From positions 1 through 38,645 of IMG/VR virus record IMGVR_UViG_3300029319_000155: a DNA stretch of 38,645 nucleotides; one strand, 5' to 3'. Positions 855 to 17,051 of this stretch are shown in pieces (the stretch's first letter is position 1; each line of letters opens with the position of its first letter). Made by a program: the position numbers and the translations under genes. This DNA is from a virus. A model generated the notes under the pieces. It was not told the DNA's origin, ran no database searches, and was given only the letters and a program-made list of their open reading frames with translations.

Positions 855-882
855 AAAGGGAGCTTAACTGCTCCCTTTTTTT
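855..882 (+). terminator. Rho-independent terminator closing the plus-strand genes
   Basis: A perfect 9-bp stem, AAAGGGAGC (855-863) paired with GCTCCCTTT (870-878), has a 6-base loop and continues into a T run to 882. It sits 6 bases after the histone-like gene stop. The converging minus-strand phosphatase gene ends at 864, inside the loop, so this hairpin separates the two convergent transcription units. The T run favours the plus strand; the minus side has only a weak A/T tail (ATTATTTAAG), so it may be a leaky bidirectional terminator. Confidence 0.85.
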
Positions 883-1394
883 ATATGCTTATACATATCA
901 TTACCAATAGCTTCACCAAATGTAGAGTCTGATTTATAATGCGCTCTAGCTATTCTCCTGCTATCAGATATATTGCGTGCTAGCTTTTTTAGCTTAGATT
1001 TTTTATTAGGATATTTATCACTTAAAACATTTGCAATTAAAAAAGCTTGTGTTGAGTGACCACTAGGATATGATGGTGTTTTCATAGAAGCTATCTCATA
1101 GTCTTTCATCTTGATGTTAAACTTTTTAGCTAAAGCTTTTGGCCTAGGTCTGTTATGATGTTTCTTTATTTTCATTATCAACGGCGCAGACTCTTCTATT
1201 AGTTTTTTTATTAAAGGATCTTTACCAACTATTTTGCTAAAAGCTGGAGCTATGTCATCCATCTCTTTAACAAACTTTTTCCTAATAGGTATATTAGATA
1301 ACTCTTTTAATTCGTTTCTAGTTGTAACAGAATTATCACTAGGCGGTTTTTTATTTAAGTATTTTTTTATACTAAAACCTTTTAACAGTTCCAT
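864..1394 (-). CDS. PAP2 / class A acid phosphatase-type phosphatase
   Basis: A 176-aa protein carrying the complete PAP2 three-part catalytic signature. K77-x6-R84-P85 is within KKHHNRPRP, P110-S111-G112-H113 is the second part, and S145-R146-x5-H152-x3-D156 (SRRIARAHYKSD) is the third. In this superfamily the two His residues form and break a phosphohistidine intermediate; substrates include lipid phosphates, nucleotides and small phosphate esters. No signal peptide or membrane segment is evident, so it looks like a soluble class A-type core acting in the cytoplasm or carried in the virion, unlike membrane lipid phosphatases. It is the last gene of the minus-strand block and overlaps the preceding gene by 13 bases. 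The overlapped coding sequence happens to read AAGGAGGAG just before its ATG, the only Shine-Dalgarno-like start I found, though its spacing is too short to be sure it is used. The substrate is unknown. Confidence 0.85.
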   Translation of the reverse strand: MELLKGFSIKKYLNKKPPSDNSVTTRNELKELSNIPIRKKFVKEMDDIAPAFSKIVGKDPLIKKLIEESAPLIMKIKKHHNRPRPKALAKKFNIKMKDYEIASMKTPSYPSGHSTQAFLIANVLSDKYPNKKSKLKKLARNISDSRRIARAHYKSDSTFGEAIGNDMYKHIKKGSS

Positions 1395-1699
1395 CTCCTC
1401 CTTGCTGCTTTACCTCTCTCGCTAGTCCAACTTCTTGACCTAGCACAAAATGACTTTCTTCGTTTAGCTTCTTTACTATCTGGATTTAATTTAGAAGGAG
1501 GAGTAGTGACAGCGGTCTGCAAATTGCTTCCTGGATTTTTTCTTTTATATTCATCAACTCCTTTTTGGGTCATACCTCCACCTGCAGCACCACCTGTACC
1601 AGTTGGTTTTGCTTTATTAAAATTTTTGCCCGGACCTATAGTTCTACGGACATCATCTTTTTTAGTAAACGGTACAAAGCCCGACATTTTAAAACTCAT
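1382..1699 (-). CDS. Small basic protein with N-terminal FKM-G tag and RRKSFCAR motif
   Basis: A 105-aa Arg/Lys-rich protein of unknown function. The first 14 residues (MSFKMSGFVPFTKK) belong to the tag shared with the genes starting at 1977, 6020 and 19390. A glycine-rich linker (about residues 33-42) leads to GVDEYKRKNPGSNLQTAV and the strongly basic C-terminus RRKSFCARSRSW (80-91), ending in RRRWNC. I recall similar C-terminal modules in marine phage proteins, possibly filed as a DUF, but cannot verify that. The Cys at position 85 and the terminal Cys at 105 could bind metal or form a disulfide. It overlaps the upstream gene by 4 bases (ATGA) and the phosphatase by 13. Its charge suggests nucleic-acid binding or packaging with DNA, which is inference. 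Confidence 0.8.
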   Translation of the reverse strand: MSFKMSGFVPFTKKDDVRRTIGPGKNFNKAKPTGTGGAAGGGMTQKGVDEYKRKNPGSNLQTAVTTPPSKLNPDSKEAKRRKSFCARSRSWTSERGKAARRRWNC

Positions 1700-1977
1700 G
1701 ATTCACCACATTTTTTACTTGGGTTACTAACTTGCACCCAGTTTTCTTTTTCAAACCAGTCTTTTAATGTTGCATTTTTTTTACGAGCACCTTTTACAAA
1801 ACTCTCACTAGATCTTTTGTACTTACCTTTTTTAGCAGCATCACGTTTAGCACGCACAACTTTTTGTCTTTCAGATTCACTCATACTACGAACTTTAGCA
1901 GCAGGTAAACAAACTTTCTTTGTACCTCCGCCTTGTTGTTTTGTGTATGGTGTAAAACCTTTTAATTTAAAAGCCAT
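1696..1977 (-). CDS. Small basic protein with N-terminal FKM-G tag
   Basis: A 93-aa Lys/Arg-rich protein. It begins MAFKLKGFTPYTK, the same tag as its downstream neighbour, but the rest is unrelated to it. The body has CLPAAKVRSMSESERQKVV (23-41), a basic helix, then RSSESFVKGARKKNATLKDW (55-74) and FEKENW, ending KKCGES with Cys90. Cys23 and Cys90 are the only cysteines. The tag-plus-different-body arrangement suggests modular small proteins. It is separated from the upstream gene by 1 base and overlaps the next by 4. No enzyme motif is visible; the function is not known. Confidence 0.8.
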   Translation of the reverse strand: MAFKLKGFTPYTKQQGGGTKKVCLPAAKVRSMSESERQKVVRAKRDAAKKGKYKRSSESFVKGARKKNATLKDWFEKENWVQVSNPSKKCGES

Positions 1978-1978
1978 G

Positions 1979-2437
1979 TTATTTTTGATTTTGTTTCTTT
2001 AATTTAAGTTTAGCAGCTTTAGCTAGTCTAGCTTGTGTCATTTTACCCATTACTCTAGCTCTTTGTTCTAACACTGTTAATATCTGAACTTTTCTAGCAT
2101 ATGGTTTATTTATTTTCATTACTTTAGCTATGGTAGCTCTAGCATCAGCTACTGTCGCAAACTTAATACTAACTGTATCTTTAGGATTTTCGTCAGTATA
2201 TAATCTTCTGCTACTACCTTTAGGTTTCTTACCTGTACCAACTAGTGGATCTTTACGTTTTGATAAAGGAGATTTAGGTCTGTTTGTTTGCATATTAATA
2301 AACCAGTTTGCTAATTGTTTGTCTCGATTAGTTGCGTCAGGTCTTGACTTAAGCTTCTTAGCCTTTTCAACTGTAACATCACCACCGTATAACTTAGATA
2401 TTCTAGCTTTTAAAACACCTCTGTAAGCTTTAGCCAT
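1979..2437 (-). CDS. Small basic phage protein, unknown function
   Basis: A 152-aa protein rich in Lys and Arg. Residues 5-45 look helical and include SRPDATNRDKQLANWFINMQ. A central Pro/Lys-rich linker (54-80) is followed by a second helical half (about 90-132) containing TVADARATIAKVMKINKPYA and KVQILTVLEQRARVMGK, then a Lys-rich tail. I recall this second half in marine phage hypothetical proteins but no function is known to me. It overlaps the upstream gene by 8 bases. The composition would suit DNA or RNA binding, which is not shown by any motif. Confidence 0.78.
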   Translation of the reverse strand: MAKAYRGVLKARISKLYGGDVTVEKAKKLKSRPDATNRDKQLANWFINMQTNRPKSPLSKRKDPLVGTGKKPKGSSRRLYTDENPKDTVSIKFATVADARATIAKVMKINKPYARKVQILTVLEQRARVMGKMTQARLAKAAKLKLKKQNQK

Positions 2438-2714
2438 CTTTCTTTTTACCTAAACGTTTTCTAACTATATTCATAACTGTTTTCATTTTACGAGCATAGC
2501 TAGGATTTTTTTGTCTATTAAAAACATACTGTTGATTTAAACTACTTATTATTTTAGACAAGTTACCTTTTCTAGTTTTAATAAGCCACGATGCTAACGC
2601 AGGTGGTGCTAAGTCTCTAAACTTACCTTTAGCATCAGGTGCGTCTGAGTCGTTCCAAGTAATAGACTTAGATGTTTTCTTTTTTCTTAATGGTGATGAT
2701 TTATATAATGCCAT
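2430..2714 (-). CDS. Small basic phage protein, unknown function
   Basis: A 94-aa protein starting MALYKSSPLRKKK, a basic leader that only loosely resembles the FKM-G tag of other small proteins here. The middle (SITWNDSDAPDAKGKFRDL, residues 17-35) is acidic and is followed by a helical region with ASWLIKTRKGNL and SSLNQQYVFNRQKNP; the tail is KKKDG. It starts at a TAATG junction with the upstream gene (1-base overlap) and overlaps the downstream one by 8 bases, so it is a real member of the coupled run. No known domain recognised. Confidence 0.78.
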   Translation of the reverse strand: MALYKSSPLRKKKTSKSITWNDSDAPDAKGKFRDLAPPALASWLIKTRKGNLSKIISSLNQQYVFNRQKNPSYARKMKTVMNIVRKRLGKKKDG

Positions 2715-3088
2715 TATCCACCGAATTTACTTGGTCCACCAGCTTTAGTACAACGAACACCCCAACCAGAAGCATAAGCACTTGGCCATACTTTAAACTT
2801 ACGTTTAGCAGCAGCTTTACAAGGACCACTAATTTTTTTCATAGGTGTTTTCATTGGCATAGCACTAATAGTTTTATCTATTTTAGCAGCTTGACCAGCG
2901 TGTTTTTTACTAGCATCTTTTAATTGACTAGATACTTTTTTCAAAAGTTTTTTACTAGTTAATGGTCCAGCGTCAACTTCAACTATACCTTGTTTATCTT
3001 TCATAGTCATACCATTACCAGATATTCTAGATCTTCTTCTTCCGCAACCAGTTACTTTTATAGGATTATTTTTTTGTATGTATGCCAT
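2714..3088 (-). CDS. Small basic protein with C-terminal Cys/WPSAYAS module
   Basis: A 124-aa protein. The N-terminus MAYIQKNNPIKVTGCGRRRS is basic with a Cys at 15. A helical Lys-rich middle (44-72) is followed by AMPMKTPMKKISG, and the C-terminus holds C90-KAAAKRKFKV-WPSAYASGWGVRC (C113), ending GGPSKFGG. I recall the pattern of Cys, basic helix, [WY]PSAYAS and Cys from small proteins of marine phages and large DNA viruses, possibly DUF5872, though I cannot check it. The paired cysteines suggest a small fold held by metal or a disulfide. The gene is coupled by TAATG junctions on both sides. Function unknown. Confidence 0.8.
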   Translation of the reverse strand: MAYIQKNNPIKVTGCGRRRSRISGNGMTMKDKQGIVEVDAGPLTSKKLLKKVSSQLKDASKKHAGQAAKIDKTISAMPMKTPMKKISGPCKAAAKRKFKVWPSAYASGWGVRCTKAGGPSKFGG

Positions 3089-3474
3089 TATTGAAATTTA
3101 TTTAGTATTAATGTATCAATAGAGTTCTGTATTGTTTTTTTATCTGCTTCAAGTTGAAACATTATGTTTGCGTTAAACCTTTCTTTTTCTATACCATTAT
3201 CAAATATGATAACAGTTGGTACAGCGGTTATACCATACTCGGTTTGTAATTTTGTGCAGTGCATAATATCAACTCTATATACACTAGTATCTTTTAATTT
3301 ATTAAGGTCTGCAAATTCATTAGCTTTATTCCAGCCAGCCCAAAACTCTACAGCTACAATATCTTTAGCTATTTTGTTATCAAAATTACCAGTGTTAATA
3401 ACCTCTTGCGCACATGTTCCAAAGCAGAATACAAGAGACATCATTGTAACATACAATATATTTGTTATGTTCAT
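3088..3474 (-). CDS. Secreted thioredoxin-fold protein lacking the CxxC active site
   Basis: A 128-aa protein with a hydrophobic signal peptide ending GTCA before Gln23. The mature part has the thioredoxin layout: beta strand IVAVEFWAGW (39-48), then WNKANEF where a thioredoxin would read WCxxC, then YRVDI, a LQTEYGITAVPTVIIFDNG region (76-94) with the conserved cis-Pro at P86, and a helical C-terminus. Both catalytic cysteines are replaced (N49 and N52); only C73 remains in the mature protein. It therefore cannot act as a dithiol oxidoreductase and is more likely a binding or chaperone-like periplasmic protein. Its neighbours are a single-TM protein and other secreted proteins. The fold call is strong from motif order; the role is unknown. 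Confidence 0.82.
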   Translation of the reverse strand: MNITNILYVTMMSLVFCFGTCAQEVINTGNFDNKIAKDIVAVEFWAGWNKANEFADLNKLKDTSVYRVDIMHCTKLQTEYGITAVPTVIIFDNGIEKERFNANIMFQLEADKKTIQNSIDTLILNKFQ

Positions 3475-3815
3475 TTCCTTAATAGTTTTATTTCATCTTT
3501 AATATAATCAAGGTCTTTTATTATTTGGTCTATTTGGTTACGAGCCATTTGATCTTTCATATTAAACTCCATACGAGTTGGCGGCCATGTGTTAGTAGCA
3601 GCTGGATCACCCATGTCTATAGTATACGTACCAGTACCTGGTTTAGGTAATTCTAATGCTTGCTCAACTTTACTTTCAAGTTCTGTAAACTTAGAGTTTA
3701 TACTAGCCATTAAACCAAAATAAGCAGATACAACTGTAACTACCGCTACAACTATACTAACTAATGTTTTAATACTTATTTGAAACTTACTGTCTTCTGA
3801 TAACTCTTTACTCAT
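3471..3815 (-). CDS. Single-pass membrane protein with coiled-coil tail (holin- or spanin-like candidate)
   Basis: A 114-aa protein: a short charged N-terminus (1-14), one clear transmembrane helix (about 15-37, VSIVVAVVTVVSAYFGLM), a short coiled-coil (ASINSKFTELESKVEQAL), a Pro/Gly linker, and a charged C-terminal helix (NQIDQIIKDLDYIKDEIK). I start at ATG 3815 rather than the upstream in-frame ATG at 3866, because 3866 lies inside the 49-aa gene in another frame and 3815 overlaps that gene's stop in the usual tight way. The topology would fit a single-TM holin or an inner-membrane spanin partner, and a DUF5675 protein is nearby, but no family motif proves a lysis role. Confidence 0.75.
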   Translation of the reverse strand: MSKELSEDSKFQISIKTLVSIVVAVVTVVSAYFGLMASINSKFTELESKVEQALELPKPGTGTYTIDMGDPAATNTWPPTRMEFNMKDQMARNQIDQIIKDLDYIKDEIKLLRK

Positions 3816-3957
3816 TATTAATATTTTTAAACTCTTTTTTAGGCCAAGGGTTTCTATCTCTACCAACTGAATCTAGCATTAACTTACCACTACCACCGTT
3901 AGTTTTATTTGCTCTACTATAATGTTTTCTTTTACCTGCTATTCTTCTTCTTGGCAT
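3808..3957 (-). CDS. 49-aa basic micro-protein
   Basis: A small gene of 49 codons. It starts MPRRRIAGKRKHYSRANKTN, has a Gly/Ser-rich middle and ends NPWPKKEFKNINNE. Its ATG overlaps the stop of the upstream secreted-protein gene as TAATG (shared base 3957), and its own stop overlaps the start of the membrane-protein gene by 8 bases. This chain of overlaps with no spare sequence supports it as real although it is short. The Arg/Lys-rich N-terminus could bind nucleic acid or membrane lipids; there is no recognised domain. Confidence 0.7.
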   Translation of the reverse strand: MPRRRIAGKRKHYSRANKTNGGSGKLMLDSVGRDRNPWPKKEFKNINNE

Positions 3958-4649
3958 TACTTAGCATATTTAATTTTACCATTTTCAATAAACAAACCTA
4001 CTCTTTCTCTAATAGCTTTTCCATCAATATTATATATCACATTATTTTGCTTTGATTTATCAAGTAGTTCATCAATACTAAAATTACAAGGCAGTCCAGT
4101 ATCACAATCAACATACTCTGTAATGTACTCTACAAACTCTACATATTCTATTTCTACAATAGTATCATAAACTATTACATCAACATATTCAATAACATCA
4201 ACGTATAATGTATCTAATACATCCTCGTAAACAAATACAGTATCAGTTATATAAATGTATTCTGGAACTAAAGTTTCGATCTCTACGGTGTCTAAAACAA
4301 TGTTATATACATATTCAGTTTCAACTATAGTATCAAATACAAATTCAAGCTCTGTTAATGTTATAAAAACAGTGTCACAAGCAATTGGTGTAGGTGGTCC
4401 ACACTCTGTTGCGAGCGTTGGTCCTTCAGCGTTTTCATCTGCTGCATCTAAACAGTCTTCCCAACCGTCATTAATCCAAGTTGTTTCTACACAACCGTTA
4501 GGTGAATACTGTGTCCAGTTGCTTGGGTCATCACCACAATAAAAACCTTCTTGCTCAGCACAAGCTAAACATAAGGCTTGAAAATCAAAACCTTGTGCAT
4601 TAGCGAGCGAGCCAATAAACGCAAATAGTATTATAATATATTTCTTCAT
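3957..4649 (-). CDS. Secreted acidic beta-repeat protein with no Lys/Arg in its mature stalk
   Basis: A 230-aa protein with a signal peptide (1-18, MKKYIIILFAFIGSLANA) and a mature start at Gln19. Residues 24-91 are Cys-rich (eight Cys: CLAC, YCGD, NGCVE, EDC, TEC and IAC). Residues 92-182 are a beta-prone stalk of irregular repeats built around D-T-[VIL] with alternating hydrophobic, Asp and Glu residues. From residue 4 to 197 there is no Lys, Arg or His. The last 26 residues (IYNIDGKAIRERVGLF, then ENGKIKYAK) resemble the short C-terminal motif found on many secreted Bacteroidetes proteins. Probably exported to the periplasm or cell surface. It lies between an outer-membrane barrel gene and small envelope genes. 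Function unknown; the sorting-signal idea is inference. Confidence 0.8.
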   Translation of the reverse strand: MKKYIIILFAFIGSLANAQGFDFQALCLACAEQEGFYCGDDPSNWTQYSPNGCVETTWINDGWEDCLDAADENAEGPTLATECGPPTPIACDTVFITLTELEFVFDTIVETEYVYNIVLDTVEIETLVPEYIYITDTVFVYEDVLDTLYVDVIEYVDVIVYDTIVEIEYVEFVEYITEYVDCDTGLPCNFSIDELLDKSKQNNVIYNIDGKAIRERVGLFIENGKIKYAK

Positions 4650-4651
4650 AA

Positions 4652-5704
4652 TTAAAATATTAAATAGTTAAAGCCAAATTTAATTTCATATACTGGTTTC
4701 ATCCAGTATCTTTGGTGTGTTCCTTCAACAAACATACCAAGTGATTTAGTTAATCTAGAACCAAACACTACACCAGCATCCCACTCTATATTATCATTAT
4801 CTTGTTTGCCATACTCAAATGAGTACTCATCTAAACCGTGATGTATCGGTAAGCAATTAGCCCAAGCATGTAGCCACATTTTATTAGTGTACTTATAATA
4901 AGCAACGCCAATGACTGCACTTAGTTCTCTTTGTAAACCTAATTTATCAAGCTCACGCTCGTTAAACCTAGCGACAGCTTCACCAAAGTAGTGATTAAAA
5001 AACTCATCGTTTGAGGTAGCGAGTAGGACAGAGTCTCCACTACTAACGTCGTACCAGTTCTGATCAACGTAAAAACCTTGCACCCATTGTTCGGGAGCGT
5101 AACCAAAGTCTTGGGCTATATCTTGAAAGTTAGAAGATCCTGGCACCCAGAAGTCTCTAATAGGATTAACACCATACACAGGATGTATTCTACCTACAAC
5201 ACCAGCTGTTAAATCCCAGTTGCCAACATTAACTCTAAACCTAAGATCTGTTGACATATATTTTAAATTTACTCTTTGATTATCTGCGTACTGCGCTTTT
5301 GCTACATACATGTCACCTAGGTATCTTAACCAAAAGTTTTGATTATTAAACTTCTCACCGCGTTCACGTATAAAAGAATAATTAAGTAAATACTCCCAAC
5401 CATTAGCATTACCTATAGTAACGTTATCAGCTACATTGTCTTCAGTACCGTAGTACCAAGTCTTAACTTTATATTCATAATCAAACCTAGCTATTTTACG
5501 AAGACCAATAGTTAAGTTGTAATCATAAGGATTAACAACGGTTACATCTTCATAACCTTTACCAATAGCTCTATAATCTTCTTGCTCTACAAAAGAAGTA
5601 CCAGTTGTCATTGATGCGTAAAACGTAGAGTACTTAAAAAAATCTTTAACTTGCCCAACACACACCGTGCTAACAAGTAGTAATAATATAATAATGTTTT
5701 TCAT
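4652..5704 (-). CDS. Outer-membrane beta-barrel protein encoded by the phage
   Basis: A 350-aa protein with a signal peptide (MKNIIILLLLVSTVCVG, mature at Gln18). The body consists of alternating aromatic-rich amphipathic strands with short turns (for example DYNLTIGLRKIARFDYEYKV, MSTDLRFRVNVGNWDLTAGV, AVIGVAYYKYTNKMWLHAWA) and it ends in FGFNYLIF with a terminal Phe, the usual signal for outer-membrane barrel insertion. The gene is in a small cassette of exported proteins. Plausible roles are changing the host surface during infection (superinfection exclusion or receptor masking) or forming a pore at lysis; neither can be chosen from sequence. The barrel call is good; I do not recognise a named family. 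Confidence 0.82.
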   Translation of the reverse strand: MKNIIILLLLVSTVCVGQVKDFFKYSTFYASMTTGTSFVEQEDYRAIGKGYEDVTVVNPYDYNLTIGLRKIARFDYEYKVKTWYYGTEDNVADNVTIGNANGWEYLLNYSFIRERGEKFNNQNFWLRYLGDMYVAKAQYADNQRVNLKYMSTDLRFRVNVGNWDLTAGVVGRIHPVYGVNPIRDFWVPGSSNFQDIAQDFGYAPEQWVQGFYVDQNWYDVSSGDSVLLATSNDEFFNHYFGEAVARFNERELDKLGLQRELSAVIGVAYYKYTNKMWLHAWANCLPIHHGLDEYSFEYGKQDNDNIEWDAGVVFGSRLTKSLGMFVEGTHQRYWMKPVYEIKFGFNYLIF

Positions 5705-6021: not shown

Positions 6022-6480
6022 TTATATTGTTTTATAAGTTATTGTTACATTTTCTCCACAATCAATAGCATTTGCTATATCAGGATATATCCTTTTATAA
6101 GCTTGAGTTGACTTACCTATAAAACCGTCCTTCGTGATTTGGTTATTTTCTTGTGAGTCTCCGACGAGTAAACAACCTGCCGTGTGTTCGTCAGTATTAC
6201 CGCAATGAATAAGAATGTACTCAAAATTAGGAACGTCGAGAACATGAAGCATGCCAATGTGAATATCACTAAAACGTTTCGAATACTTTGTATGATAGCC
6301 ACCAACCTTGCGTAAACCCAACTTGTAAGTTCCTTCAGGTATTCTTGTCTCGCCAAATTTTTTCTCATCTCTATATTCATCTTCAAGCGTGTATGCTAAA
6401 AATTTATTATTTGTTTTATCTATTAATATTCCATTAGTACTATCAGTACCACTAGAAAATCTAATTACTTCTAATTCCAT
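6022..6480 (-). CDS. DUF5675 family protein (possible cell-wall-related enzyme)
   Basis: A 152-aa protein matching the DUF5675 pattern as I know it: an early strand with LAYTLEDEYRD, the turn TRIPEGTYKLGLRK (45-58), then MLHVLDVPNFEYILIHCGN (77-95) and TAGCLLVG (100-107) with Cys93, His99 and Cys103. The layout of a His-containing strand followed by a G-C loop recalls L,D-transpeptidase (YkuD) cores, so a role on peptidoglycan is often suspected, but no activity is established to my knowledge. No signal peptide. It lies between a small beta-rich gene (abutting, 6481) and the tagged 104-aa gene, ahead of the envelope cassette. No classical endolysin is visible in the window, so this is a candidate lysis gene. 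Confidence 0.75.
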   Translation of the reverse strand: MELEVIRFSSGTDSTNGILIDKTNNKFLAYTLEDEYRDEKKFGETRIPEGTYKLGLRKVGGYHTKYSKRFSDIHIGMLHVLDVPNFEYILIHCGNTDEHTAGCLLVGDSQENNQITKDGFIGKSTQAYKRIYPDIANAIDCGENVTITYKTI

Positions 6481-7820: not shown

Positions 7821-10800
7821 TTATTGGTGAGCATAACATTTTTTATTAGCGTTTTCAGTTTTGTTCTTACAGCGTTCACCGTTAGATTTTATAGCTGTAC
7901 ATCTATATTCTTTTTTACCATCACCATCAGTATCACTTCCTTCAACAAAACTTCTATGGTGTACACATAAGAATTTTTTCTCTGTTGTTTCACCAGTTAT
8001 CTTACATCTTTCACCGTTAGATCTTATACCAGAACACTGAACAGTTTTAATACCTTTAGCTTCTTTTTCTTTTTGTTCTTGTATTTTTTCTTGTTCTTTT
8101 TCTTCTTTTTTATCTTTCTTCCTTTGTTCTTTAGCATCTTCTTTAGCTTCTTCAAGTTCTTCATCTTCTATACCTATATCCCACTTGTTCCAACCAGCAA
8201 TTAAAGCTACACGTTGCCAAAGCTCATGATTACCAGTAACAGCTTCTTCTATGTTATTAGCTTTGTTAACTAACCTTGCTAATGGTAAGTTTGTTAAAGC
8301 TTCAACCCAGTTAGCAAATATAGACAAGTTAGGATTTTCAACTCTATAACCTATCTCTTTACCAACACCTTGATTAAACTGTTCTGTTTTTATAGCGTTA
8401 TATATTTTTCTAAGCTTACTACCTATAGGTGGAGATAAACTAACAGCTTCTAATAATATTCTACCATCATCTCTTTGACCAAAACCCTTTTGCCTTTGCT
8501 TATGCCATTGTATTAAAGTGTTTTTAAGTGTAGATAACATAGCTCCGTATATACCAGTACCTCTAAGTATAGTATCTAAAGCGCCGTTCATAACTCTTTC
8601 AACTTTTCTATTAACATCGTCACCATCTTCTTCATCGTCATTACCAAATAATAAAAACGCTAAACCACTTTGCATTGCACCAAACCAAACATTTTGTATA
8701 AAACCGTAATAAAGTATTTTAGATATATTAGTTTTCATATCACCTCTACCATTTGCAGCATCAGATAAAGCCTTTTTCAACAAACGAGTCATTTGCATTG
8801 GTGTGTTTTGCCAAGCTAATATTAATCTACCTAGTGTACCAGCTTGTTGTTGTGATATTAAATCTGGTCTAGAAGACTGTTGTGTTTCTTCAGCTACTTC
8901 TTGAAAGTCTAAAAATGCTTGATCTGCAGCTTGTTTAGGTGACATACCGTCTTTTATAAGTTTATTATATCTGTTTCTATAGAAACTAGCACCACCCATT
9001 GCTATAGCAAAACTATCAGCAATACGTGTAGGTGCAAAACCTTTTTCTAATAAAAATGCTATAACTGTTGATGGTGAATAACCTCTTTCTTTAAATACTG
9101 ATGTTAGTTCGTTTGCATTAACATCTATTTCTAAACCAGCACGACGTTGCTTTAACATGTCTGAATTAAATATCATAGCAAAGTCTTTCCAAAACTGTGG
9201 TTGGTTAGCAAATGCTTTAGCTGCTGCAAACATATTATTATCACTCCAGTTTATAAAGTTAACTGTAGATATAGTTTGTAGCATAGCAGATCTTATATTA
9301 AAGAACATTACCGCTCCAACAGAACCGTTTATCCATCTTAATAATCTATTAACATTTTTATCTTTACCAAAGTTTCTATTTGTACCGTTTTCCATACGAT
9401 ACAACATGTCTTCTAAAGCGTTTACATAATCAGGACCGTAAATAGCTTCTAACTTAGCTAAGTTTTCAGGTGAAAATATAATGTCTTTATTAGCTGAAAA
9501 GTCTTGTAAAAACTGTTGTCTACCAACACTACCAACTATACTATTTAAATCACCAGCTATAGTAGACACCATCCAGTTTGGTCCGGGCTCTATATAACCT
9601 TCTGTTCTAGTTATTTGTTGCAAAGACTCAGCATATGTTAGTAGGTCTGGATTATTATTAACTTTATCTAACAGTATTTGTAGTTCAGACTCTGATAAAC
9701 CTGGTATATTATAGCCAGCTTTATTCCAAAGATAAGCTCTTATAGCTGTATCAACAGTGTATGCTGTACCATCAACCTGATCTCTAAGTTTTACATTTGG
9801 CATACGCTTTCTAAGAGCTTGATACTCGTTAGCCATTGTTTGCTTATAAGTATTCCAAGCTCTAATACCCTTAGCATAAGGTTCAAATAGCTTTTCTTTC
9901 ATCCAAACAAACTGCCTGTCACCTACTTTACCTTTACCTAAAAGCTTATACATCAAACCTTTAAAATCTTCAGCTGATGGTGGTATAAAAAAGTCTTTAA
10001 ATTTTCTTGTTATAGAACGTTCAATAACACGACCTCTAACTCTACCTTCTGCCTGTGAAAACCTTCTTGATGAATCAACACCCGTTGTTTCCTCTATTAT
10101 CTTATTAAACTCTTTATCTATAGTAGAATCAGCATCTGGCTCTATTACTTTACTAGACATTTTATCACTAGTATCTACAAGTCTGTTAACTTGTTTTAAT
10201 TTAGCTTGTACAACTTTTGATTTAATATCTAATTGATCGAGTACATTTTTAACAGCGTCAACGTTTTGTAAAGCATCATCAACAAAATACATATCATTAT
10301 AACCTTCAGCAAATTTATCTAGCATCCACTGAGCTTTAGCCTCACCTCTACTATCAGCAAGACCAGTTATGTTTTCAAAAGGTATATCTATACCCTTTGA
10401 TTTTAACCAACCATTAATAGCTGATGCTGCTGCTTGTGGTCTAGCTGTTAGTATAAAAACATTATCAGCTCCATATTTAGCTATTTGATTTTTCATCTTT
10501 TGTAATAAAGGACCATCTACACCACCTCTAACATTAACAAAATCATCAAAGTTAAACTCATAACCCATATCAGCAAACTCAGGCCCTTGAACAGGCCAGT
10601 CACCTGAACTTATTCTTGTTTGCTCACCTGTTAATGGATTTGTAGCTATTACAAAATTTTCACCATCAATAATAAGTGTTTCATCAAAATCAAAAGTAGA
10701 CATACCTTTAACATCAACTTTGTTTTTGCTTTTTAATTTTTTAGTATTTTCTTGAAGTATGTTTTGAGTTTTAACAGCATTGCTTCTATCAAGCTGATTA

Positions 10801-13800
10801 CGATCCATTTCTAATTGTTGATCGTTAAATTGTTTATTTTTATTAAACTCAGATTTAGCTTGTTCTATTGTTTCTATTGAAGCACCACTGAGAACTTTAA
10901 CTATAAGTTCATTTTGAAGCTTTATAGTTTGTTGAGATGGATTACCAACAAAACCAACACCAAATTGTTCTGTTATAGTTTTACCAGTTGGCATCCACTT
11001 TAATTTATTTAAATTTATATACTCAACACTACCATCTTTCATCGTGTGAGGCACAGCGTATCTTATAAATGATATTAAACCATCATCTATGTTTTTTAAT
11101 TTACCATCTCTAAGTGCTGGTAGTATTTTATCATAAAATACTTGAGGAAAACTAGACTTATAATTTTTATTAACTATAGCGTGATCAGCTTTTGACAAAC
11201 TACCTTGAACTAATATTGCCTTTATTATAGGTCTAACTTGATCAACTAAACCAAGTTTAGATGCGTTCATATATAAGTTTCCAACAAGCCTTGCTGGTGA
11301 GCCGTGCTCTTCATCAAATAATGTTTCGGTATCTGTAGTGCCATCAGAATTTATACCGTGAAATAAATATGGAACTAAAACTCTATTATATGCACCACCT
11401 TGATTATTAGTTGTATTAGCTAACAACTCGTTCATAACAACAAAGTCTTGAGGTCTTGTTTTTAAATGTTTTTCAATAGCTTTATGAAAATCGTATAGTA
11501 GTTGTTCTCTAGCTTTAAAATCAGTTTCATATAGCTCTTTAATTTTTTTAGGCTTTTGTTTTTTACCTTCAACAACTTGAACTCTTTTTTCAACAGCTTG
11601 ATCTTGATCGTTTGGAGGATATTCATTATCAAAATTATCAACAGTACCGTACATACTTCTTTCCATACCGAAAACAGTAGTGTTTTTTATTATCTGTCTA
11701 AATTGAGGGTTGTTTTTTAAAAATGTTTTAAAACCAAGTTTAATGTGCTCACCTTGTGTTAAGCCTTGTTCGTATTGAGAAGGAGCTGTAAGATCTATAA
11801 AGTACATTGGTTTTCTTTTGTCTTTTTCAACTTTAAAACCAAGGTTAACTACTTCACCTGTTTCAGCATCTAAGTAAAAAGCTGTACCATCTATTTGTGA
11901 CATCCTAACATCACTAGTTTCTGATAGCTTTTGAATAGTATCACTGTCAATATTTTTTACTTTTCTATTATATAGTTTTTCAGGCGAACCATCTCTAAGT
12001 CTATTAGATATTTCACTACCAACAACTTGATTTTTAACAGCATTAAGTTTTGTTTCTTGAACAGCTGATAATGTAGCTAACACAACAGCTAACTCTCTTA
12101 TAGCACCATCTGCTTTAGTACCTGGTTGTAAACTACCGTTTTCATTTATACCAAACTTATCTAAAAACTCAGCTTTAGTTATATCAGATCTAAGTTTTAA
12201 TGTTGTTATACCAGAACCTGTATCTGTTTTTCTAGCTCTAGCACCTTTGTTATAAAAACTAATAAACGTTTTACCAACAAGTCCAGTAGCTTTACCACCA
12301 GTTGTAGCACCTTGATCTCCAAATATACTTAGTATTTCAGGTTTTAGCTGTCCACTATCATCAACACTTATATCGTATATCAACTTCTTTGCAGCGTTTC
12401 TTTGTTCTGTTGACAAGTCTTGTCTAGCTAAAATTCTAAGTGGATCAATACCCATATAACTAGCTACAGCATTTAAAACATTAAAATAAGGACCAGTTGG
12501 TATAGCAGACTTTTCTGTTTTTAAAGGCTTTTTAGTTTTAGGATTAACTACATCTGGGTCAAAGTCTTTATCAACCACTAAGTTTTTAATATTCTTAATA
12601 GCACTAAACTTAGATTTAGGGTCTGTAAGACTATTCATTAAATCAGCGTTCTGAGCTTGTTGAACTGTTTCGGATATAGTTGATCTATTGTCTTGTGGTA
12701 AATCTATTATGTCTGTAACAAATAACACGTCATCAACAGTTTGTTTTAAATCACGCTTTAATGTTGGTGTCATATCAGCGTTATCGATGTCTGTCATTAG
12801 CGTGTCTTTTTTATCCGCCACTGTATCAGCTATAGTACCACCATCTTCTGAAACTTGTCTGTCTAAAGATCTTCTATCACTACCACCTTCTTTCTTGTAC
12901 TGTTTCATTATATCACCCTTAGCTCTATATATAACAGATTTACCAGCGCCACCCGCAACACCAGTTAACCAACCAAATAAACTTGGGTTAGATATTCTAT
13001 AACCAGGTTTAAACTGCTCTAAACCATTTTCATCTAGTATAGGATTACCATTACGATCTTCAATTCTTTTAGGTAAAAATCTATCAGCTATTCTTTCTTT
13101 AACTTTTCTTGTGAAATCTATTAACGCTTCAGCTGGTAAGCCAAGCTCTGTCATACCTGATTGTATTAATCTGTCTAGTTTTTTACCCTGTAATATTTCA
13201 AAGTAAGCATCGTAAAAATCAGGACTAGACTCAAAGTCTTCTTGCGTTTTATATTTAGGCGTACCATCAGCATTTTTAGTATATTTATCGTATGTTGCCA
13301 TAAGATCAGGATCGGAATCCATATTTTGCTGAACAGATTTATTATGTAGTCTTTGTCTTTTTCTTTCTTGAGGAGTTCTAGCGTCTTCAAATACTTTACC
13401 ATTAGCACCCTTAGCTAACATTTTAGCTATAGCTTTACTTGGTTTATTATTAGCAATAGAATAATGATAATCTCTCATGAAGTTTTTAATGTCTTCAGTA
13501 GTATCAAACTTTATATCTCGTCCTAAATACTTTTGTGTAAACCTTCTATATACACCAGCTAATTTTTGTAATACATTATCGTTGAATTTTATATCACCGT
13601 CAAACATCATTTCAGATGCTATAGCCATCATTTCTTCACCTTGTTGATCTGGATTATATGCAGCTATTCTTTTATTAAACTCATTTAGTTTAGCTGTTGA
13701 AGAAAACGTAACACCTTTACCTTCTAATATAGTTTTTAGTTGATTACCTAATATCTTCCTCATAGCAGGATCTGCTTTCAGAGTATTAGCAAATGTAGCA

Positions 13801-16800
13801 TGTATAAACTCGTGAGCTGGTGTATTTAACATACCATCTGTAATAGCTGTTTCTTTGTTAACTATTATATCTATACCAGTTAAATTACCTTTGTTATCAA
13901 ACTTAGGTTGCATAACCCCATAGTCATCTGCAGCTAATAAGTTATCAGCTATTTTAACTTGGCTCTCAGCATCTTTTAATAGCTCTCTAGCGTTCTCAAC
14001 TTCTGAATCAGTAGAGTTAGGATCGTTTATAATTTCATTTAAACCCTCTACCATACCTATGTTTTCAGAAGCTATATTCTCAACCTGAGCTTTAGACATG
14101 TTTTGATCATACCTAGACTCTCTTTCTGAAAAACCTTCTCTATCAGTTTCTATTATATTTACAACTGGAGCACCATACTCAGCAGCCATGCTAGCCATAC
14201 GTTTTAACGTATTAATTTGTTTTTCGTAGTTTTTATCTACAACATTAGGTGGGTACTTGCTAATTATAGCTTGCTTTCTATTGTTTCTAGAGTCTATTCT
14301 ATTTTGTACTTCTTGTATTTTTTTAGCTCTATCATCTTTAGATAACTCAGGGTCTTTTTTAATATTGTCTATTTCTTTATTATCTAAATAATTTCTTTTG
14401 TCTATTTCAACTAAAGCTCTTTTTTCAGTTGGGTGTAGTAAGTCTACTCTTTTTATATCTTGTTCAACTAGTCTATTGCTCTCATCAACTAATTCTACGT
14501 ATTGATTTTCTAGTTTCTCTATTAACTCTAAGTTTTTAGGATCACCAGAGTTTTTAAGTTCAGTTATTCTTTTTGTTAAGTCACCAATTTCAACACCTAT
14601 TTTAGCAACTCTATCACTACTGTTTTTAGATAAGAAAGGTCTAGTAATAGGTCCTATTAATCTAGGTGATTGCATTGCTGCTGCTAAAACAGCTCCATTT
14701 ATAAAAGCTTCATCTACACCATCAAATAAACCAACTTCATCTTTACCGCTAATATACTTGTCAGCAAAGTTACCAACAACAGCGCTAAGTCCTTCTGCAA
14801 CACCTTCTTCTAACATTTCATTACCTAAACCTATAGTTGTTCTACCAGCTGTTGTTAATATAGAACTTAGTGTAGATTTTACACCAGTATTAATAGCTTG
14901 TTGAGATATAGGTCCAAATAAAGATCTAGCTGTTGCACCTAGTATTTTACCTGTAGTATATTCAAGAGCACCTTCAGCAGCTCCACTTAACGTAGCATTT
15001 AAAGCCATAGAACCAAAGCTATGGTTCATGCCATATATACCTCCAGTTTGTTTATAAAGCTCTCTCTCGTCTTGCATCTGCCTATACTTACCACCTATAC
15101 TAGAAGCTGATATTATAGCTAAACCAGGTAAACCTCCAGTTACAGCTAACGTAGCTAATATAGGTGCTTGGCTAACTGCTTGAGAAGCGAAGTATTCAGC
15201 ATAATCACTACCATCTTTTAAATCTTCCCATTTTGGTGGTATTTTAACTCTAGAATCAAAACTTTCTTTTAAACCTGTATACTTTTCTCTTGTAATATCC
15301 CAAAGACTAACTCTCTCATCTTCACCTTCTTTTTTAACGACATCTGAAAACACGAGATTTGTTACAGGTGCCGCATATGTTAAAGCAGCGTTTGTAAAAA
15401 ACTTAACAGCTTTTCTAGTATTTGGATCATCTATACTATTTATAAGCTCTTCTTTACCTTCTACAGCCATATCAACAGCATCAACAAGGTTTACTGCAAA
15501 ATCTGGAAAAGACATTAGTACAGATCTAAGACCGTAAGCTTCATATATTCTATTAGCTTCTTTGCTATACAAACCTATCTCACTAGCATTTAAATCTAAC
15601 TCATCAAGTTCCGCTCTAGTTTTACTATCAAGCTCACCATACTCTTGCATAGTTTTAAATAAATAATCTTGCTTCTGCTGCTTATCAATAAGTTGATCTC
15701 TTAACTTTGTTAATTTAGCATTAGCTTCATCAACCTCTTCTTGAGTTGTATACTTTCCGTTTTTTATATCATTAAACTGCTTTAACAAAGCCTCACTTTC
15801 AGCCTTGTTATCAATCATCATTTGCTCACCTTTAGTATAAGCATCAGCTATACCTTTAAGTGTTTTTGTTTTAACTTCTACTTCAGTTCTAACATCACTT
15901 AATATATCTTCACTTATTTCTTTTCGTATATTTTTTTGTTCATCAGAAAGATCTTTTTGATCTTCCATAACGTTGTTGTTAAATATCTCACTTTTTAGTT
16001 GTGACTTAACAGAGTTTTGAAAATCATCATGAATATCACCTTGTTCATTTAATGATTTTATAGCATTATTATACTGTTCTTGAGTTATACTACCGTTTTG
16101 TAATTGGTTATTTAAATCAACTCTTTGTTTTCTAAAATCGTTAGACTTTTTTGTAGCTTCATCTAAAAAAGGTTGAAAGTCATTTGCGTTAATTATTTTT
16201 TCGTAATCAACCTCAAAGTCTTTATCATCTTTTCTTTTTTCTCTAACATAGTTTTCTACAGCTGATGATTGAATAGCTTGTTTATAAAGTTGATTATCAA
16301 CAGGTGGTTTAGGTTTTTTTAAAGTTTTTTCAACCATCCTATTGTTTTCATAAACATTAGTAACAATTTCATCTACATCACCATATTGACTAGTCCACTC
16401 TTCTAAATCAGAAGCATATTTTTCTGCGTCTTGATATATTTTATTAACACTATTATTTACCTCATCTTTAATCTCATCATCATGAGTACCTCTTCTAGCG
16501 TTATTTAACTCTTGATTAACTAAATCTCTATTAACGTTAATTTTATGAGTGTTCATAAACTCAGTCATCTGCTTAGCAACTTCTTCGTCTTGAGCTAGAG
16601 TCCATTTATCTATTTTAAACTCTTTAGAAACTTCGTTATCTTGGTCTTTATTTGCTATTATTCTAACAACATCTCTACCTACGGAAGCTTGTTCAAAATC
16701 AAAACCAAATTTAGAATATTGATCTGTTAGCATTTTAACAGCTCTACGCTCGTTACGTCTTGTTATATCAGTTGTTACACTTGGTAGTTCTTCAACTACT

Positions 16801-17051
16801 TCTTTTTCGTTTTTATTTTGTTTGGATTGTTGTTCTAGATTATCGAACGTTGTTACAGAAGGTAACAACTCAGAGTTTTCGTATTTATTTGGTAATGGTT
16901 TTTTAGGCTCGTCTTCGTTTTTAGGAGCGTTTTGAAGTTTTGCATTTGGAAACTTAGATAAGAATAAATCTTTATCTTTAGCGTTTACATCTATTAGTTT
17001 TTCTCTACCTGGTATTTCATATACCAAGATAGAATTATCTTGTTCTGCCAT
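7821..17051 (-). CDS. Giant 3076-aa internal/ejection protein with peptidase-like, HAD-phosphatase and zinc-knuckle segments
   Basis: A 3076-aa protein in the position of the large internal (ejection) protein of T7-like phages. Visible segments: a charged coiled-coil-rich N-terminal third; hydrophobic stretches near 630-650 (LATLAVTGGLPGLAIISAS) and 2780-2807; a HExxH site H1080-E1081-F-I-H1084 with acidic residues in GEEMMAIASE (E1139-E1147), as in zinc peptidases; and a HAD phosphatase module with D2121-F-D2123-E-T-L, T2202 in LTARP, K2239 and D2258-D2259. A helical region (about 2300-2900) resembles phage polyvalent proteins. The C-terminus (3006-3075) has two C-x9-C...C-x2-H knuckles flanking an Asp-rich DTDGDG loop. 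It probably enters the host with the DNA, where its enzymes could act on envelope, protein or small phosphorylated substrates. One open frame, no frameshift seen. The enzyme activities are inferred from motifs only. Confidence 0.85.
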   Translation of the reverse strand: MAEQDNSILVYEIPGREKLIDVNAKDKDLFLSKFPNAKLQNAPKNEDEPKKPLPNKYENSELLPSVTTFDNLEQQSKQNKNEKEVVEELPSVTTDITRRNERRAVKMLTDQYSKFGFDFEQASVGRDVVRIIANKDQDNEVSKEFKIDKWTLAQDEEVAKQMTEFMNTHKINVNRDLVNQELNNARRGTHDDEIKDEVNNSVNKIYQDAEKYASDLEEWTSQYGDVDEIVTNVYENNRMVEKTLKKPKPPVDNQLYKQAIQSSAVENYVREKRKDDKDFEVDYEKIINANDFQPFLDEATKKSNDFRKQRVDLNNQLQNGSITQEQYNNAIKSLNEQGDIHDDFQNSVKSQLKSEIFNNNVMEDQKDLSDEQKNIRKEISEDILSDVRTEVEVKTKTLKGIADAYTKGEQMMIDNKAESEALLKQFNDIKNGKYTTQEEVDEANAKLTKLRDQLIDKQQKQDYLFKTMQEYGELDSKTRAELDELDLNASEIGLYSKEANRIYEAYGLRSVLMSFPDFAVNLVDAVDMAVEGKEELINSIDDPNTRKAVKFFTNAALTYAAPVTNLVFSDVVKKEGEDERVSLWDITREKYTGLKESFDSRVKIPPKWEDLKDGSDYAEYFASQAVSQAPILATLAVTGGLPGLAIISASSIGGKYRQMQDERELYKQTGGIYGMNHSFGSMALNATLSGAAEGALEYTTGKILGATARSLFGPISQQAINTGVKSTLSSILTTAGRTTIGLGNEMLEEGVAEGLSAVVGNFADKYISGKDEVGLFDGVDEAFINGAVLAAAMQSPRLIGPITRPFLSKNSSDRVAKIGVEIGDLTKRITELKNSGDPKNLELIEKLENQYVELVDESNRLVEQDIKRVDLLHPTEKRALVEIDKRNYLDNKEIDNIKKDPELSKDDRAKKIQEVQNRIDSRNNRKQAIISKYPPNVVDKNYEKQINTLKRMASMAAEYGAPVVNIIETDREGFSERESRYDQNMSKAQVENIASENIGMVEGLNEIINDPNSTDSEVENARELLKDAESQVKIADNLLAADDYGVMQPKFDNKGNLTGIDIIVNKETAITDGMLNTPAHEFIHATFANTLKADPAMRKILGNQLKTILEGKGVTFSSTAKLNEFNKRIAAYNPDQQGEEMMAIASEMMFDGDIKFNDNVLQKLAGVYRRFTQKYLGRDIKFDTTEDIKNFMRDYHYSIANNKPSKAIAKMLAKGANGKVFEDARTPQERKRQRLHNKSVQQNMDSDPDLMATYDKYTKNADGTPKYKTQEDFESSPDFYDAYFEILQGKKLDRLIQSGMTELGLPAEALIDFTRKVKERIADRFLPKRIEDRNGNPILDENGLEQFKPGYRISNPSLFGWLTGVAGGAGKSVIYRAKGDIMKQYKKEGGSDRRSLDRQVSEDGGTIADTVADKKDTLMTDIDNADMTPTLKRDLKQTVDDVLFVTDIIDLPQDNRSTISETVQQAQNADLMNSLTDPKSKFSAIKNIKNLVVDKDFDPDVVNPKTKKPLKTEKSAIPTGPYFNVLNAVASYMGIDPLRILARQDLSTEQRNAAKKLIYDISVDDSGQLKPEILSIFGDQGATTGGKATGLVGKTFISFYNKGARARKTDTGSGITTLKLRSDITKAEFLDKFGINENGSLQPGTKADGAIRELAVVLATLSAVQETKLNAVKNQVVGSEISNRLRDGSPEKLYNRKVKNIDSDTIQKLSETSDVRMSQIDGTAFYLDAETGEVVNLGFKVEKDKRKPMYFIDLTAPSQYEQGLTQGEHIKLGFKTFLKNNPQFRQIIKNTTVFGMERSMYGTVDNFDNEYPPNDQDQAVEKRVQVVEGKKQKPKKIKELYETDFKAREQLLYDFHKAIEKHLKTRPQDFVVMNELLANTTNNQGGAYNRVLVPYLFHGINSDGTTDTETLFDEEHGSPARLVGNLYMNASKLGLVDQVRPIIKAILVQGSLSKADHAIVNKNYKSSFPQVFYDKILPALRDGKLKNIDDGLISFIRYAVPHTMKDGSVEYINLNKLKWMPTGKTITEQFGVGFVGNPSQQTIKLQNELIVKVLSGASIETIEQAKSEFNKNKQFNDQQLEMDRNQLDRSNAVKTQNILQENTKKLKSKNKVDVKGMSTFDFDETLIIDGENFVIATNPLTGEQTRISSGDWPVQGPEFADMGYEFNFDDFVNVRGGVDGPLLQKMKNQIAKYGADNVFILTARPQAAASAINGWLKSKGIDIPFENITGLADSRGEAKAQWMLDKFAEGYNDMYFVDDALQNVDAVKNVLDQLDIKSKVVQAKLKQVNRLVDTSDKMSSKVIEPDADSTIDKEFNKIIEETTGVDSSRRFSQAEGRVRGRVIERSITRKFKDFFIPPSAEDFKGLMYKLLGKGKVGDRQFVWMKEKLFEPYAKGIRAWNTYKQTMANEYQALRKRMPNVKLRDQVDGTAYTVDTAIRAYLWNKAGYNIPGLSESELQILLDKVNNNPDLLTYAESLQQITRTEGYIEPGPNWMVSTIAGDLNSIVGSVGRQQFLQDFSANKDIIFSPENLAKLEAIYGPDYVNALEDMLYRMENGTNRNFGKDKNVNRLLRWINGSVGAVMFFNIRSAMLQTISTVNFINWSDNNMFAAAKAFANQPQFWKDFAMIFNSDMLKQRRAGLEIDVNANELTSVFKERGYSPSTVIAFLLEKGFAPTRIADSFAIAMGGASFYRNRYNKLIKDGMSPKQAADQAFLDFQEVAEETQQSSRPDLISQQQAGTLGRLILAWQNTPMQMTRLLKKALSDAANGRGDMKTNISKILYYGFIQNVWFGAMQSGLAFLLFGNDDEEDGDDVNRKVERVMNGALDTILRGTGIYGAMLSTLKNTLIQWHKQRQKGFGQRDDGRILLEAVSLSPPIGSKLRKIYNAIKTEQFNQGVGKEIGYRVENPNLSIFANWVEALTNLPLARLVNKANNIEEAVTGNHELWQRVALIAGWNKWDIGIEDEELEEAKEDAKEQRKKDKKEEKEQEKIQEQKEKEAKGIKTVQCSGIRSNGERCKITGETTEKKFLCVHHRSFVEGSDTDGDGKKEYRCTAIKSNGERCKNKTENANKKCYAHQ

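Follow-up and report, generated by a model that had tools for sequence, protein, structure and literature searches.

LDL-receptor class A (LDLa) modules use an acidic calcium box to bind lysines of their ligands, and calcium-type heads of this kind are otherwise known mainly from animals. Phage tails typically contain elongated oligomeric beta fibres, and outer-membrane proteins such as Lom and Cor, which phages encode near the tail genes, change the surface properties of the host. The triple-stranded beta-helix of T4 gp5 carries a VxGxxxxx repeat (PMC4576200) and alpha/beta coiled coils are trimeric fibres in which insertions of 2 or 6 residues matter (PMC4786415). The locus described here lies in a 38,645-base virus record (IMG/VR IMGVR_UViG_3300029319_000155, positions 1-38,645), which we call the window, meaning the whole stretch of DNA that was analysed. 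Two adjacent genes encode an LDLa-like-headed stalk protein and a predicted outer-membrane barrel (Table 1), and we propose, with a probability of about 0.5, that they constitute a two-gene phage envelope unit for late remodelling of the infected host surface.

Table 1. Features of the stalk and barrel genes, in window coordinates
Feature	Position	Strand	Basis
LDLa-like-headed beta-stalk protein, 230 aa	3957..4649	minus	ORF, composition, relatives (130 distinct complete homologues)
Signal-peptide-like segment, residues 1-19 (MKK + hydrophobic + AQ)	4593..4649	minus	sequence; SQ, AQ or GQ site in homologues
Head, residues 20-90, divergent LDL-receptor class A-like module	4380..4592	minus	profile searches, alignments, model
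Ca2+-box motif WINDGWEDCLDAADE, residues 58-72; expected ligands D61, D65, D71, E72	4434..4478	minus	homologue alignment
Stalk, residues 92-181, turn-free two-residue-register beta segment without K, R, H	4107..4376	minus	composition, register, indel statistics
Tail, residues 182-230: two Cys, short helix, small beta unit, C-terminal YNIDGK...GLFIENGK motif	3960..4106	minus	model, genome searches
Predicted outer-membrane beta-barrel, 350 aa, signal-peptide-bearing, constant partner	4652..5704	minus	model, Foldseek, synteny

Querying IMG/VR with the single window protein recovered 31 stalk loci, whereas an alignment query recovered at least 227 and a query with the head only 216, the best 80 being kept from each of the latter two. 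The 130 distinct complete proteins analysed below were pooled from the best-scoring 80 loci of each scan, with more distant members lying outside this sample; exact duplicates were collapsed before counting, and three head ORFs that had no start or were cut by an end were left out. Eleven of the 130 have no standard stalk delimiters and do not enter the counts made on the remaining 119 stalks. The alignments cover 18 of 31 heads (A2), 17 of 31 tails (A4) and 42 of 81 barrels (A3; 80 plus the window), and alignment A1 leaves out L021, which is identical to L019. A search of 50,697 phage records returned no relative of the stalk protein, nor any match to the head of a divergent member. Among the rows listed, the portal protein is 41-50% identical to those of Flavobacterium elemo phages, Maribacter phage Panino and a Manatee Spring genome, that is, to flavobacterial podovirus-type phages and one environmental phage, and Cellulophaga and Tenacibaculum phages also occur among the 87 portal-matching records. 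This likeness makes a marine flavobacterium the likely host.

The stalk protein stands out by its composition, with only 8 Lys, 2 Arg and no His in 230 residues. A first-pass annotation of the window had pointed to 194 consecutive residues (positions 4-197) free of all three, and this holds exactly: the next longest such runs among the 29 listed ORFs of the window are 116, 104 and 90 residues, the probability of a 194-residue run from a given start is 1.4e-12 at the Lys/Arg/His frequency of the other window proteins (0.131 over 12,029 aa), and in 20,000 shuffles that kept the protein's composition it was never reached. Every one of the 130 relatives keeps such a run (124-281 residues, median 196.5), which makes it a conserved family trait, and the 119 delimited stalks contain no Lys, Arg or His in 11,574 residues. 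Two further details of that annotation were borne out, namely the basic surroundings (neighbours at 864-3088 have K+R far above D+E) and six DT pairs in the stalk, a number reached in its 90 residues by 0.025% of shuffles; a seventh DT sits in the tail. The N-terminal hydrophobic segment is followed at the expected site by SQ, AQ or GQ in 106 of 108 homologues, which supports an exported-type protein and, with it, the earlier description of a secreted phage protein whose beta stalk is negative and whose head is rich in Cys.

The stalk has Cys 91 just before it and Cys 182 and Cys 188 shortly after it, and its length ranges across the family from 24 to 178 residues. Eight residue types, I, V, E, T, Y, D, F and L, make up nearly all of it, and turn formers are scarce, amounting to 18 Gly, 15 Ser, 113 Asn and 201 Pro in the 11,574 residues. 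We observed no plain hydrophobic/polar alternation (46 changes of 89 in the window protein, against a shuffle mean of 43.9), and a register appears only when residues are read by class. In the 103 even-length stalks, Tyr then occupies 3 odd and 1107 even positions, whereas the smallest odd count in 1000 shuffles was 500; Pro (0 odd, 175 even) and Thr (72 odd, 1245 even) share the same face, and Val takes the other (1366 odd, 271 even). Insertions and deletions obey the same rule. Where nearest relatives differ by a single stalk indel, its length is even in all 72 pairs, with sizes of 2, 4, 6 and 10 residues, and since the pairs behind these counts are not phylogenetically independent, we also counted events distinct in size and position, of which there are 23, all even. 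Among pairs with several stalk gaps, an odd gap occurs in 3 of 21. By comparison, head indels in the same proteins comprise 82 of one residue and 2 of two residues, and neighbouring proteins show mixed sizes (Fisher p ~1e-6 against the stalk, on distinct events).

Stalks of odd length account for their own exception. Gly is present in 16 of 16 of them and in only 2 of 103 even-length stalks, and the 11 proteins lacking standard delimiters divide in the same manner, into 3 of odd length with Gly and 8 of even length without, so that all 19 odd-length stalks contain a register-flip Gly. The parity of Tyr flips at the Gly of a W/Y-M/L-E/D-G-A-L-D-T motif, which looks like a classic one-residue beta-bulge. 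The D-T repeats that the first-pass annotation called irregular thus belong to a strict two-residue register.

Taken together, this register and the scarcity of turn formers point to a single long strand per chain, and we infer that the stalk is probably one uninterrupted beta strand in each chain of an in-register parallel homo-oligomer. Such an oligomer is the simplest arrangement because a hairpin or solenoid would be thrown out of register by changes of two residues. For the same reason, and because there are almost no turn formers, the beta-solenoid put forward earlier as a possible stalk fold is disfavoured, as its neighbouring coils would be displaced by each two-residue indel. Structure prediction, the check suggested at that stage for a rigid stalk, speaks neither for nor against it, the AlphaFold monomer giving the stalk a pLDDT of ~23 and no structure; the longest stalk matched no solved structure. 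Hexanucleotide slippage was considered as a source of the even indels and rejected, since the gene holds no tandem repeat and slippage would leave the one-sided placement of Tyr unexplained.

The first-pass annotation had recognised the head as Cys-rich, and its six cysteines (27, 30, 38, 53, 66 and 83) are indeed each kept in 108 of 108 aligned proteins, but its likeness to LDLa had been overlooked. The 108 homologues share the box W/Y-x-N-D-G-W-x-D-C-x-D-x-S-D-E, in which all four carboxylates expected to bind Ca2+ are invariant; we take their identity as ligands from LDLR repeat 5. The reduced pattern D...DC....DE is present in all 130 distinct relatives. A profile of 18 heads run against PDB sequences returned 50 rows, led by VLDLR, LRP1 and LDLR (best E 2.5e-4), all of which we take to be LDLa-bearing proteins. 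Pfam PF00057 (Ldl_recept_a) gave a single match in each of 15 virus records, always in the stalk gene, with scores below the curated cut-off of 24.1 bits throughout (best 22.9, 0 of 15 above it); searched singly, 29 of 31 members matched it, also below the cut-off. In a control of 14 genomes, 10 gave sub-threshold PF00057 matches at E<=10, which leaves an isolated weak match with little meaning; the weight lies in the agreement of 15 records on one gene.

The AlphaFold monomer gives the head core a pLDDT of 83-87. A Foldseek search with the stalk-protein model found no match at E<=0.001, its best-ranked rows not being LDLa, and upon structural realignment with VIA-align the only chains at Z>=2 were two megalin LDLa repeats (Z 2.6 and 2.0). 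The cysteine pattern departs from the canonical one: Cys4 of LDLa is replaced by Asn in 105 and by Ala in 3 of 108 phage heads, and the sixth Cys, which sits in a CxxC, falls outside the canonical set, so that the 1-3, 2-5, 4-6 pattern of six cysteines is not reproduced. Because of the replaced Cys4 and the sub-threshold Pfam scores, we call the head a divergent LDLa-like module and not an LDLa member. Tyr takes the place of the LDLa-box Trp in 48 of 108 heads, and the canonical clamping of lysine by Trp would thus not be uniform across the family.

Cellular relatives of the head are few. A scan of one genome per species over 84,980 species gave two loci with head matches. One encodes a Crocinitomicaceae MAG protein (L041:7956-11372) with a signal peptide, two tandem heads, and PKD, Kazal and T9SS type A domains; its heads are 49-64% identical to the aligned phage heads, and it passes the LDLa cut-off on the protein (26.7 vs 24.1 bits) while scoring 24.0 in a six-frame search. 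LDLa matches were absent from 394 further Bacteroidia genomes, making this type of head very rare in the class (1 of 395 genomes), and a head-profile search of Bacteroidia matched that genome only. The other locus, a Thalassarchaeum MAG protein (L042:3169-5190), has two short Ca-box-type repeats (ENDGWEDCSDGSDE and ENDGEEDCSDGSDE) without the rest of the head.

What the first-pass annotation missed is a constant partner, an outer-membrane barrel gene, 2 nt upstream of the stalk gene in the window and upstream of it in 129 of 130 stalk loci, the remaining one having too little upstream DNA. Conversely, IMG/VR holds at least 588 barrel loci, and among the best 80 of these the stalk gene lies downstream in 78, while in the other two the contig breaks off 7 or 92 bases past the barrel. 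The barrel protein has a signal-like N-terminus, judged by eye, and an aromatic C-terminus; the final residue is F in most homologues and L or Y in a few. Its AlphaFold model shows long strands of barrel type (pLDDT ~85; mean 72.7), and Foldseek against the PDB ranks FapF best (E 4.5e-5), with invasin, porins and autotransporter barrels also among the best matches; none of their query TM-scores exceeds 0.35. These matches support a predicted outer-membrane beta-barrel and no closer family. A viral model, A0A516LKJ4, matches with E 3e-26 and 33% identity; isolate phages gave one weak match (E 0.07), and the 395 Bacteroidia genomes one weak partial match (E 5e-4, in one genome). In one subgroup (loci L066, L077, L086, L106, L111, L113, L114 and L120) the barrel begins with LLISCATPKKCCAQ or similar, a lipoprotein-like signal.

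The tail is modelled by AlphaFold as a helix (192-202) and four short strands at pLDDT ~70, and in the window protein it ends in YNIDGK...GLFIENGKIKYAK. The first-pass annotation had likened this ending to C-termini of Bacteroidetes secreted proteins and considered type IX secretion a possible route. A tail profile matched 11 places in 10 of 395 Bacteroidia genomes at E<=0.01, where about 4 genomes would be expected by chance from the per-genome E-values. At three of the 11 places, and in a further open frame of these loci, we read the motif YN/YD-x-x-GQ/GR ... G-I/V-Y-I-x-NGK, whose end lies 5 residues short of the C-terminus. The likeness to C-termini of some Bacteroidia secreted proteins is weak, though specific. 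An hhalign comparison of the tail with these four C-termini gives 96%, a value that is circular because they were chosen by the tail profile, so that only the C-terminal placement counts. That part of the earlier claim is partly borne out, but type IX sorting is not supported. TIGR04183 has no match in 12 virus records, against 59 places in the positive-control bacterium, one of which is the head-bearing Crocinitomicaceae protein; in an hmmscan of 31 members against all NCBIfam models, T9SS models are absent at E<=10; hhalign of the tail against 10 T9SS domain rows gives a probability of 1.6%; and the T9SS type A sorting domain (TIGR04183 / PF18962) is not recognised in the stalk protein. Tail matches in 88 isolate phage records, with listed rows at E>=1 to Clp proteases and unnamed proteins, were dismissed as chance.

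Several other minus-strand genes of the window drew notice. The one at 3088-3474 encodes a thioredoxin-fold protein with a signal peptide and with W-N-x-x-N in place of the W-C-G-P-C site, and because this W-N...N pattern recurs across the family (97 aligned sequences), the protein looks like a redox-dead secreted thioredoxin. A 131-aa open frame at 3471-3866 (~113 aa from the likely ATG) combines a single hydrophobic segment with a PGTGTYTIDMGDPAA..TWPPTRMEFNMKDQMARN stretch that is strongly conserved; it adjoins the stalk gene in most loci, in a position like that of a holin or spanin. The DUF5675 protein at 6022-6480 contains an invariant ILIHCGNTDEHTAGCLLVG-like stretch that resembles an L,D-transpeptidase-type site. 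At 7821-17051 lies a 3076-aa protein that has no Pfam match and only chance-level PHROG matches.

Our proposal of a late envelope unit starts from three features of the sequences, namely the calcium box with its cysteine set, the two-residue register and the constant pairing with a barrel. Both proteins would be exported by Sec, and the barrel would insert into the outer membrane and anchor or thread the stalk protein. Several stalk chains may then pack as in-register parallel strands, an arrangement in which even indels would be harmless to the oligomer, and the cysteines flanking the stalk may staple it. With a rise per residue of ~0.33 nm for an extended strand, a 90-residue stalk would measure ~30 nm if fully extended, and a Ca-loaded acidic head held off the membrane at this distance could bind a basic partner, whether a surface protein, a receptor or a part of the virion. 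Since the acidic box of LDLa binds lysines, a head and stalk without Lys, Arg and His would not bind their own heads, and avoidance of self-binding is a possible reason for the composition; such a chain would also resist trypsin-like proteases. By analogy with lambda Lom and Cor, the most likely use would be superinfection exclusion or the masking or capture of a receptor. The surface location of the stalk protein, as opposed to the periplasm or the virion, is a prediction, and it counts against it that no T9SS signal or model match was found.

Other readings place the same protein elsewhere. It could stay in the periplasm, bound to the barrel as a tether or outer-membrane-disrupting factor, and act with late envelope genes in lysis; a Sec-type signal with no route found across the outer membrane fits such a role, as do the envelope-type genes that accompany the stalk gene (131-aa membrane-anchored, secreted thioredoxin-fold, DUF5675 and PAP2). 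Yet a stalk varying from 24 to 178 residues suits a fixed periplasmic gap poorly, and no role in lysis is known for a calcium-type binding head, so we regard this location as unlikely. An improbable variant on the outward side would have the barrel serve as a dedicated pore that threads an unfolded acidic chain outward, much like two-partner secretion. The constant adjacency of the genes is what one would expect of such a pair, and Foldseek places FapF, a barrel for amyloid export, at the top, with autotransporter barrels among the further rows, but any barrel of this size gives these rows at such TM-scores, the proteins have no sequence relation, and no TPS or autotransporter domain was found.

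That the protein is a structural fibre of the virion, its head binding the receptor, seems quite improbable to us: the gene does adjoin the distal structural block and a fibre would be in keeping with the oligomeric beta structures of tails, but the conserved signal-peptide-like N-terminus would export the protein from the cytoplasm, where virions assemble, and a constant pairing with an outer-membrane barrel does not suit a virion part. Finally, the stalk might be a compositional curiosity, a fast-evolving acidic segment of low complexity without defined structure, in line with its low AlphaFold confidence and low residue diversity. The uniformly even indels, the one-sided Tyr (3 of 1110, against a smallest shuffle value of 500) and the Gly at register flips instead imply a tight structural constraint, and without a tandem repeat in the DNA of the stalk gene we find this explanation hardly credible.

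If the envelope-unit proposal is right, abundant uncultured phages, judging by at least 227 stalk and 588 barrel loci, build a two-protein structure on the host envelope, which points to a way of building there that has not been described. The two-residue indel rule, moreover, offers a testable signature of a beta fibre to which structure prediction on single chains is blind. More tentatively, and at clearly less than even odds, the stalk could represent a new class of fibrous protein in phages of marine Bacteroidota, a turn-free parallel homo-oligomer in dipeptide register, tens of nanometres long, that bears Ca-bound LDLa-like heads and is displayed via a phage-encoded barrel.

Compared with known systems, the head shares with the LDLa modules of LDLR, VLDLR, LRP1 and megalin the W/Y-x-x-D-G-x-x-D-C-x-D-x-S-D-E box with its four Ca-ligand carboxylates, as well as the canonical cysteines at positions 2, 3, 5 and 6 and a Cys at position 1, but it differs in the replaced Cys4, the extra Cys in CxxC, a longer loop between Cys2 and Cys3 and a score below the Pfam cut-off. 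A search of open-access PubMed Central found no paper joining LDLa with phage, which is not proof of absence. The Crocinitomicaceae protein has heads of the same type, in tandem, on an exported surface-type protein, whereas its PKD, Kazal and true T9SS type A domains set it apart, and neither a beta stalk nor a barrel partner was seen. T4 gp5 and other oligomeric phage beta fibres have an elongated multi-chain beta structure like that which we infer for the stalk, but the stalk has no VxGxxxxx or Gly repeat of the kind described for gp5 (PMC4576200), with only 18 Gly in all the residues counted, and follows a two-residue register alone. Likewise, the alpha/beta coiled coils stand on a background of helical heptads (PMC4786415), while the stalk has no heptads and few helix formers. 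FapF and the autotransporter barrels have a barrel fold in common with the partner protein by Foldseek, at low TM-score and without sequence relation, and Lom and Cor are single small proteins of enterobacterial phages without an LDLa-like partner. Against this background we rate the stalk unit as a variant of phage-encoded envelope proteins that has not been described previously.
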